Shown here: piece after piece, positions 23,047-25,186 of the stretch
Numbering within the stretch: position 1 is the first letter of the stretch
Layout of the letters: each line of letters starts with the position of its first letter
Assembly (NCBI GenBank): GCA_012520575.1
Contig: JAAYOB010000007.1
Location: forward strand, 62,001-126,000
DNA: 64,000 bases
Direction: 5' to 3'
From: Candidatus Stramentimicrobium fermentans
GTDB lineage: Bacteria > Atribacterota > Phoenicimicrobiia > Phoenicimicrobiales > Stramentimicrobiaceae
Notes under the pieces: generated by a model
Seen by the model: the letters and a program-made list of their open reading frames with translations, nothing else
Databases searched by the model: none
What the model was told of the DNA's origin: nothing
Position numbers and translations under genes: made by a program

Positions 23047-24696
23047 TTAATAACCTTCCTCCAGGTTTATTTTATTTTCTGGTTCTTCCCCCTCGAAGAT
23101 CCGTTTAATATTTTTATACACCTCTAATACATTTTCTTCTACTGCTTTGTCGGTATAGCCAGCACTATGCGGTGACATTACAACATTAGATAATTCCTGA
23201 AAGGCAAATTTACTGGGTAACCTTTGCGGGAAATCTCGGTTGGGGTACTGGTACCAGGTATCTATCCCCGCTCCTGCCAGGGTTCCGTTTTTTAGATATC
23301 TATAGAGAGCCTCCTCATTAATAACCTTTCCCCTACCTACATTGACCAGATATTTCCCTTTCATTAATTTTAACATAGAACCACCAATTACATCTTCGGT
23401 CTTGGCTGTCAGGGGCAAGGTAACAACGATGAAATCAGATTGTGATATAACATATTCTAATTGTTCCATCGTTCCTAAGAAGGTTAAATTATATTTCTTT
23501 TGCAGGTCTTCCTCTTTTTTAAGAGTACGTTTTACCGCATAAACCTTCATACCAAAAGAGATGGCTCTTTGAGAGATCTCCAAACCGATGGCACCTAAAC
23601 CTATGATTCCTAAGCTTCTACCGGCGAGTTGAATGGTAGGCTCTTGAGTAGTATACCCATGCCACTCACCCTTTCTCAATTCTCTGTCACTGTATATTAA
23701 ATTTTTAGCCAATGCCAGTAATAGGCAGAAGGCTAATTCTGCAACTGCAGAACTATTGCCATGAGTATTGCAAACATTTATCTGGGGAAACCTTTTAAAA
23801 ACATTCATGTTCTGTTGGTCGACTCCGGTAAAAGGTATTTGAAATAATTTTAAACTTTTAGCCATATCGAGCTCGGATTCACTCAACTCTCCTCCTATAA
23901 TTACCTCAGCCGAGGCCAATTGGTCACTCGTTAGCTTGCTATCTCGTTCCGGAAAAATGAACTCAAGGGGTAATTGCTCTTCTTGATTATATCTATTTAA
24001 TAATTCTACCCATTGTTTTTGACTGACCATCTTGCTAAATATTATTATCTTCATTTTTCTATAATCCCTTTCGGTTATTTGACTTTCTTCGCCTTTGAGG
24101 TATTCTCGAACTGCTACTAAATGCTTACACTCTAAATTCCATTTTCGGCAGTTATGCTCGAAATCATAACAATCACATTCAGGAACTGATAGATTGACAT
24201 GATACACTTTGCTATTCTTTTTATTCTTAACCAGAAAGTGCTCTCCTGCATCCTCTACTCTTAAGTCTTTAGAGGCAAGCGCCCTCTTATTCTGCTCTTC
24301 CTTTACCAGTAGCTTCCTTGCTAATTGATCTGCCAGCTGATTGTTTTCCCTTCTGTTCCAAATAAAAAAGATTGGCGCCTTTATTTTTTTAACCAATTCC
24401 TGTGTTTTTTCATAAAGTGGAATTATTTTCTTGTTTTTTACCTTAAACTGCCCATTCAATTGCTTCACTACTAATTGACTATCACAATAAAACTCAATAG
24501 AATCAGCCGACAAATCTTTTATTTCTTCTAAGCCTCTAATAACGGCACAATACTCGGCAATATTGTTGGTTCCTACTCCAATCAGTTCATTGATTTTTTT
24601 CCATAATTCACCATCACGATAGATAACAATCCCGATAGCCATATTACCAGGATTGGGAATACAGGACCCATCTACACGTATTAACAGTTTCGCCAT
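23047..24696 (-). CDS. RNase HI - SWIM zinc finger - D-2-hydroxyacid dehydrogenase fusion
   Basis: One 549-codon frame joins three modules. Residues 1-130 are an RNase HI-type domain with all four acids (D9, E48, D72, D123 in RVDGSCIPNPG, NIAEY, YCDSQL, QLADQLA). Residues 170-195 form a SWIM-type zinc site, CxC...CxH (C174, C176, C190, H192). From M215 a full 335-residue D-2-hydroxyacid dehydrogenase follows: GIIGLGAIGLEI for NAD, R455 in VNVGRGK and H510 in SPHSAG; the usual catalytic glutamate position (DVFxxEP) reads Y484 in DTWYQYP. M215 has its own weak ribosome site (AAAGGGA), so separate translation of the dehydrogenase is possible. It follows the LOG-type gene by 13 bases. Confidence 0.85.
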   Translation of the reverse strand: MAKLLIRVDGSCIPNPGNMAIGIVIYRDGELWKKINELIGVGTNNIAEYCAVIRGLEEIKDLSADSIEFYCDSQLVVKQLNGQFKVKNKKIIPLYEKTQELVKKIKAPIFFIWNRRENNQLADQLARKLLVKEEQNKRALASKDLRVEDAGEHFLVKNKKNSKVYHVNLSVPECDCYDFEHNCRKWNLECKHLVAVREYLKGEESQITERDYRKMKIIIFSKMVSQKQWVELLNRYNQEEQLPLEFIFPERDSKLTSDQLASAEVIIGGELSESELDMAKSLKLFQIPFTGVDQQNMNVFKRFPQINVCNTHGNSSAVAELAFCLLLALAKNLIYSDRELRKGEWHGYTTQEPTIQLAGRSLGIIGLGAIGLEISQRAISFGMKVYAVKRTLKKEEDLQKKYNLTFLGTMEQLEYVISQSDFIVVTLPLTAKTEDVIGGSMLKLMKGKYLVNVGRGKVINEEALYRYLKNGTLAGAGIDTWYQYPNRDFPQRLPSKFAFQELSNVVMSPHSAGYTDKAVEENVLEVYKNIKRIFEGEEPENKINLEEGY

Positions 24697-24709: not shown

Positions 24710-25186
24710 TTAATAATTATAAATAATTGCTAACCTTTCCTTTACAAGTGTTTTTAACTCTGCCACCTCATTGATATAATAAACTTTTCCTTCTTTTTGG
24801 AATGGCTTCAGCCAGCCACCAACCTCGAACCTGAATAAGATAACTTCTTTCCCATATTTCAAAGCGAGGGCAATCTCTGAAATGGTCCCGGCACTTCCCG
24901 GCAGAGCTATAATCAGATCTGAACTCAATATATTAATTACATTTCTAGCCATACCCATCCCGGTTGCAATAGGTATATCAATGTATTGGGAAGCCCAATC
25001 GGGGTTATCTACCGGTAAAATTCCCACTGTAATTCCACCGTTATCTTTGGCGCCTTTTGCTGATGCCTTCATCACTCCTGCATCCCGTCCACCATTTAAC
25101 AATACCCAACCTTCCTGGGCAATCATGGCCCCTATTTGATAGGCAAACTGTTCATCCTGGGGATGCACAAATTGTGTTCCCCCCAT
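24710..25186 (-). CDS. LOG-like / TIGR00725-type Rossmann protein, 5' end uncertain
   Basis: A 158-residue SLOG-fold protein with the family motifs LLNGGRDAGVMKASAKGA, DIPIATGMGMARNVI and ALPGSAGTISEIALAL. Relatives include nucleotide-binding proteins of unknown role and cytokinin-type phosphoribohydrolases. The track's ATG at 25186 is too far in: upstream codons in the same frame read IPIKRIVIGV, the expected first beta strand. No ordinary start codon joins that strand in frame. An ATG at 25242 would, if the 11-base G run between them held 9 or 12 bases. The dehydrogenase fusion is the next gene. Confidence 0.75.
   Translation of the reverse strand: MGGTQFVHPQDEQFAYQIGAMIAQEGWVLLNGGRDAGVMKASAKGAKDNGGITVGILPVDNPDWASQYIDIPIATGMGMARNVINILSSDLIIALPGSAGTISEIALALKYGKEVILFRFEVGGWLKPFQKEGKVYYINEVAELKTLVKERLAIIYNY

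Follow-up and report, generated by a model that had tools for sequence, protein, structure and literature searches.

The protein encoded at this locus is a genuine, conserved fusion, and probably an ancestral one, fixed in one order of Atribacterota, of two independent enzymes, an RNase HI with a SWIM-like grip and a D-2-hydroxyacid-dehydrogenase-fold half, which are held on a neutral tether and do not regulate one another. The two halves occupy one conserved frame and are inherited together, the catalytic residues of the RNase are intact, the tether is neutral, and the fusion is the only RNase HI of its kind in the genome. Within the window, the 64,000-nucleotide stretch of DNA that was analysed, the ORF listing and translation gave a 549-residue frame on the minus strand (24696-23047) with an ATG start and no internal stops. 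Its features, and the evidence for each, are as follows:

23047..24696, minus strand: RNase HI, SWIM-like zinc site and D-2-hydroxyacid dehydrogenase fusion, 549 aa (open frame, Pfam, 18 full-length orthologues including the window's)
24307..24693, minus strand: RNase HI (RVT_3) domain, residues 2-130, catalytic D9, E48, D72 and D123 (Pfam, PDB relatives, invariant residues)
24112..24183, minus strand: putative SWIM-like CxC...CxH zinc site, residues 172-195, C174, C176, C190 and H192 (sub-threshold Pfam SWIM, invariant ligands)
24055..24102, minus strand: tether, residues 199-214 (neutral in sequence, yet kept open and in frame; pLDDT below 50 at 207-211)
23050..24054, minus strand: D-2-hydroxyacid-dehydrogenase-fold half, residues 215-549, with GxGxxG at 366-371, R455, DTWYQY at 479-484 and H510 (Pfam, structure relatives, invariant residues)
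24710..25186, minus strand: SLOG cluster-4 / TIGR00725 gene, upstream, 13 bp before the fusion (profile matches; same place in many, not all, relatives)

Pfam profiles placed RVT_3 at residues 8-128 (E 4e-17) and RNase_H at 4-128 (1e-10), followed by 2-Hacid_dh_C at 324-512 (2e-44) and 2-Hacid_dh at 227-544 (2e-10). An AlphaFold2 model of the whole protein had a mean pLDDT of 80.5 and a pTM of 0.56. We surveyed 101 related genomes for orthologues, and a co-linear, full-length protein without stops was found in 18 of them (the window's included), distributed over two families (f1 and f2) of one order; these intact orthologues share 52-73% identity with the window protein, and the named relatives are Atribacterota. 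The earlier note on this DNA, which had read three parts in one frame and proposed a search for the same domain order in other genomes, is borne out on the first point by the 549 open codons and these in-frame orthologues (n = 18), and the proposed search recovered the intact frame in both families. Pairwise distances of the two halves correlated with r = 0.95 overall, 0.96 within f2 and a moderate 0.66 within f1, and the two halves are thus co-inherited. No match to the N-terminal half was found in four members of the order of lower completeness (63-76%). Elsewhere in the phylum, RNase HI was either undetected at the threshold used or present as a stand-alone protein that lacks the zinc site. 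We rejected this stand-alone protein as the positional ancestor of the fusion, since it has a different neighbourhood, no SWIM and only 32-38% identity. In other families of Atribacterota (loci L057-L064) it is preceded by a coiled-coil gene and a NIF3-like gene; on its far side lie antisense ORFs of the type that frequently overlies a gene for a structured RNA. Separately, a contig binned in family f5 (G045:C201, locus L085) carries a SLOG gene and, next to it at the contig end, a partial copy of the fusion with 80% identity to the window; this copy is probably mis-binned.

The tether proved informative as to whether the locus encodes one protein or two. Across residues 199-214 of the 18 sequences no in-frame stop was observed against 24 expected by shuffling, and none of 2000 shuffles reached zero, which together with the in-frame orthologues excludes a frame held open by chance; the other two frames contain 12 and 29 stops. 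Furthermore, the tether changes length in threes only, and within f1 its variation is spread about evenly over the three codon positions (0.39, 0.42 and 0.48), while both flanking halves show a strong third-position bias. From the missing stops, the indels in threes and the equal codon positions we conclude that the tether is near-neutral and that its sole constraint is to remain open and in frame. A weak ribosome site that had been pointed out at M215 is there in the window, but it is not a general feature: codon 215 reads ATT, ATA, CTA and ATA in four of the 18 orthologues, where it is not a start, and a ribosome site is absent in most. An internal start at 215 was thus rejected for these four and is weak in most of the others.

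The fused state was found in 18 of 20 relatives. In the remaining two, G002 and G008, the halves form two frames, frameshifted by indels in A-runs inside the tether, and both halves are otherwise intact, save that the N-terminal end in G008 is lost at a contig end. In a tree of the dehydrogenase, G002 is paired with the window's fused protein and G008 with that of G009, also fused, so that the split state, nested beside fused sisters, represents recent-looking derived fissions or assembly indels. Separate genes with a stop near residues 200-215, which the earlier note had held to speak against a fusion, therefore do literally occur in 2 of 20 relatives, in this nested position. The meeting of two frames in the tether of G002 and G008 would also be expected if two genes had been joined in the window's genome alone, through loss of a stop or a mistake in assembly. 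The probability of this is negligible: 18 of the 20 relatives, from two families, are fused, the split ones adjoin fused sisters, none of the 18 tethers contains a stop, and codon 215 is not a start in four orthologues. As a general account, the missed stop suggested earlier is refuted by the 18 intact orthologues and their stop-free tether. Covalent joining of the halves is probably not essential; its long retention across two families, with splits at two tips only, means that it could nevertheless be under selection.

The RNase HI half scored 62.6 bits against PF13456 (RVT_3; cut-off 21.6) and belongs to this family. Its closest solved relatives are Sulfolobus ST0753 (2EHG/3ALY; 2EHG E 5e-21) and the RNase domain of Rv2228c (3HST). 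The stand-alone ST0753-type enzymes share with the fusion an entire RNase HI domain with all four acids, but lack both the zinc site and the dehydrogenase. The DEDD metal-binding residues D9, E48, D72 and D123, on which the half had been called active-looking, are indeed all present and are invariant across the 18 sequences, and the half would be expected to act catalytically on RNA/DNA hybrids. In each of 11 members of the order that were tested, the fusion is the sole RVT_3 RNase HI, and RNase HII was detected as a separate gene in nine.

The ligands C174, C176, C190 and H192 of the CxC...CxH site, likewise noticed earlier, are invariant in the 18 orthologues and conform to the CxC(n)CxH pattern of Pfam SWIM (PF04434). 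However, the profile itself scored 14.2 bits in the window and 17.5-18.1 bits in relatives, under the curated cut-off of 19.6, and we therefore name the site SWIM-like. Judging from its residues, it may bind zinc and nucleic acid. RNase HI of the class found in the fusion lacks the basic protrusion by which E. coli RNase HI binds its substrate, and the SWIM-like finger most likely stands in for it as a nucleic-acid grip. The analogy is with RNase HI carrying an extra hybrid-binding domain (dsRHbd), which, in those enzymes that have no basic protrusion, is thought to compensate for it (PMC1950709). That module is N-terminal, whereas the module of the fusion is a C-terminal SWIM-like zinc finger that is followed by an enzyme. 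A similar CxC...CKH zinc site was seen in a 332-aa protein of a same-genus genome (L075:3620-4615), near a DNA-methyltransferase-like gene; this is possibly a nucleic-acid-binding protein of a mobile element.

The C-terminal half matched PF02826 (151 bits) and PF00389 (41 bits), both above cut-off, and its closest solved relatives are archaeal glyoxylate reductases and related enzymes, with which a Foldseek search of the AlphaFold2 model concurs. Like D-2-hydroxyacid dehydrogenases such as glyoxylate reductase, PGDH and formate dehydrogenase, it has the fold, the GxGxxG (366-371; G366/G368/G371) and the catalytic Arg and His (R455 and H510), all of these residues being invariant in the 18 orthologues. 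Unlike in these enzymes, the usual catalytic Glu position is occupied by Tyr484, within an invariant DTWYxY motif, so that the Arg-Glu-His triad is not intact. The half had been described as a complete dehydrogenase; its NAD site, Arg455 and His510 stand, but with Tyr484 at the Glu position "complete" is overstated, and dehydrogenase activity becomes uncertain. The Tyr is common to related stand-alone dehydrogenases of other phyla, and a more distant one retains the Glu. By its sequence, the half is a member of the dehydrogenase superfamily and not of the classical triad enzymes; it would be a putative NAD(P)-dependent oxidoreductase from a subfamily of D-2-hydroxyacid dehydrogenases in which Tyr replaces the catalytic Glu, and it may be catalytically active. 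No NCBIfam equivalog reached its cut-off for this half (best 142 bits against 455). The neighbours of stand-alone relatives were inconsistent, and gene context was therefore rejected as a pointer to the substrate.

Across the order the locus is syntenic: a 244-aa gene comes first, in many cases with the SLOG (TIGR00725) gene next, and the fusion is followed, in some genomes after an inserted pair of genes, by FBP aldolase, PFK and DnaE. The SLOG gene is missing beside the fusion in four genomes (G006, G007, G011 and G013), which rules it out as an obligatory partner. One scan of viral_contigs gave no viral relatives of the RNase HI-SWIM half, and with synteny being chromosomal we rejected a viral or mobile origin.

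The nearest known system is the actinobacterial RNase HI/CobC protein (Rv2228c, MSMEG_4305; PRK07238), which likewise joins an N-terminal RVT_3 RNase HI to an unrelated metabolic enzyme through a variable linker. In M. smegmatis its linker is hypervariable and its domains are reported to be separable in vivo, and the authors concluded that the fusion was fixed by drift (PMC7466739). It differs in its phosphatase partner, in that no SWIM-like zinc site has been reported and in belonging to another phylum; M. smegmatis also has a second RNase HI, unlike the genomes studied here with their single RVT_3 copy. The PRK07238 model matched residues 2-143 of the fusion, which is not a member of that family since its C-terminal half is a dehydrogenase and not a phosphatase. 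No report of the three-part RNase HI-SWIM-like-dehydrogenase architecture was found in the literature searched.

We also searched 386 genomes by alignment with the RNase HI-SWIM half and inspected long open frames. In-frame fusions of RVT_3 RNase HI were found to IspF in at least two genomes (G159 and G295; loci L088 and L091), to a DAHP_synth_1 partner that reads as KdsA in at least two (G315 and G178; L095 and L096), to an acyl-CoA synthetase with CoA-binding and Succ_CoA_lig domains in at least three (G073, G220 and G358, three genera of one family; L076, L097 and L098), and to IMPDH in at least one (G200; L101), with a frame of similar length in a second genome of the genus. Among the matches listed, the long frames inspected held no second RNase HI-dehydrogenase fusion outside the order, and the literature searched held no reports of RVT_3 RNase HI fused to IspF, KdsA-like, acyl-CoA synthetase or IMPDH partners. 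The fusion with the dehydrogenase is thus one of several unrelated joinings of RVT_3 RNase HI to metabolic enzymes, and the earlier statement that such activities are not normally linked is wrong in this respect (PMC7466739). Two further frames were of other kinds: a PD-(D/E)XK (PDDEXK_3) domain with RNase HI in a single open frame (G281, L092:500-1402), and a triple tandem RNase H in one frame (G083, L087:1402-2808), the second and third copies of which look degenerate at active-site positions.

These data bear on what the joining does. We infer that the two halves are independent: they would work separately on the neutral tether, and the joining would amount to co-expression that is tolerated, not to redox control of RNase H. 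The earlier idea of redox-linked hybrid handling found no support, as the tether varies neutrally and a split is tolerated in two lineages. Coupling, in which the RNase HI-SWIM half is regulated by a dehydrogenase half that acts as a sensor of NADH/NAD or of a hydroxyacid, is accordingly unlikely, even though the joined state has long been conserved throughout an order, the conserved yet atypical active site with Tyr484 could suit sensing, the cell has no RVT_3 RNase HI besides the fusion, and the CobC domain of Rv2228c was reported to affect RNase activity in vitro (PMC7466739). Besides the splits and the neutral variation of the tether, low model confidence in this segment, the lack of an obvious common signal among IspF, KdsA-like, acyl-CoA synthetase, IMPDH and CobC partners, and the in vivo separation of the M. 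smegmatis halves (PMC7466739) all argue against it. It is very unlikely that the dehydrogenase half, as a redox or metabolite sensor, gates the sole RVT_3 RNase HI and that the recurrent metabolic fusions in unrelated bacteria reflect a general dependence of R-loop clearance on metabolic state. The dehydrogenase family of the solved relatives is generally dimeric, and IspF, KdsA-like proteins, acyl-CoA synthetase and IMPDH are generally oligomeric enzymes too. Dimerisation of the dehydrogenase half, if it occurs as expected, would render the RNase half bivalent. That this half has been retained chiefly as a scaffold for oligomerisation, making RNase HI-SWIM bivalent for long hybrids, is nevertheless quite unlikely: a scaffold would have no need of invariant NAD-site residues, R455 and H510, and two lineages tolerate the split.

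Two independent enzymes on a neutral tether thus remain the preferred reading of an architecture that is conserved in one order of uncultured bacteria and is unusual, yet metabolic-enzyme fusion of RNase HI was already known from CobC. Besides that case, at least five unrelated kinds of metabolic enzyme, the dehydrogenase included, are found joined to RVT_3 RNase HI. Such fusions may arise by drift, as proposed for CobC, or may follow a functional trend; G009 and G008 are a natural pair of fused and split sisters.
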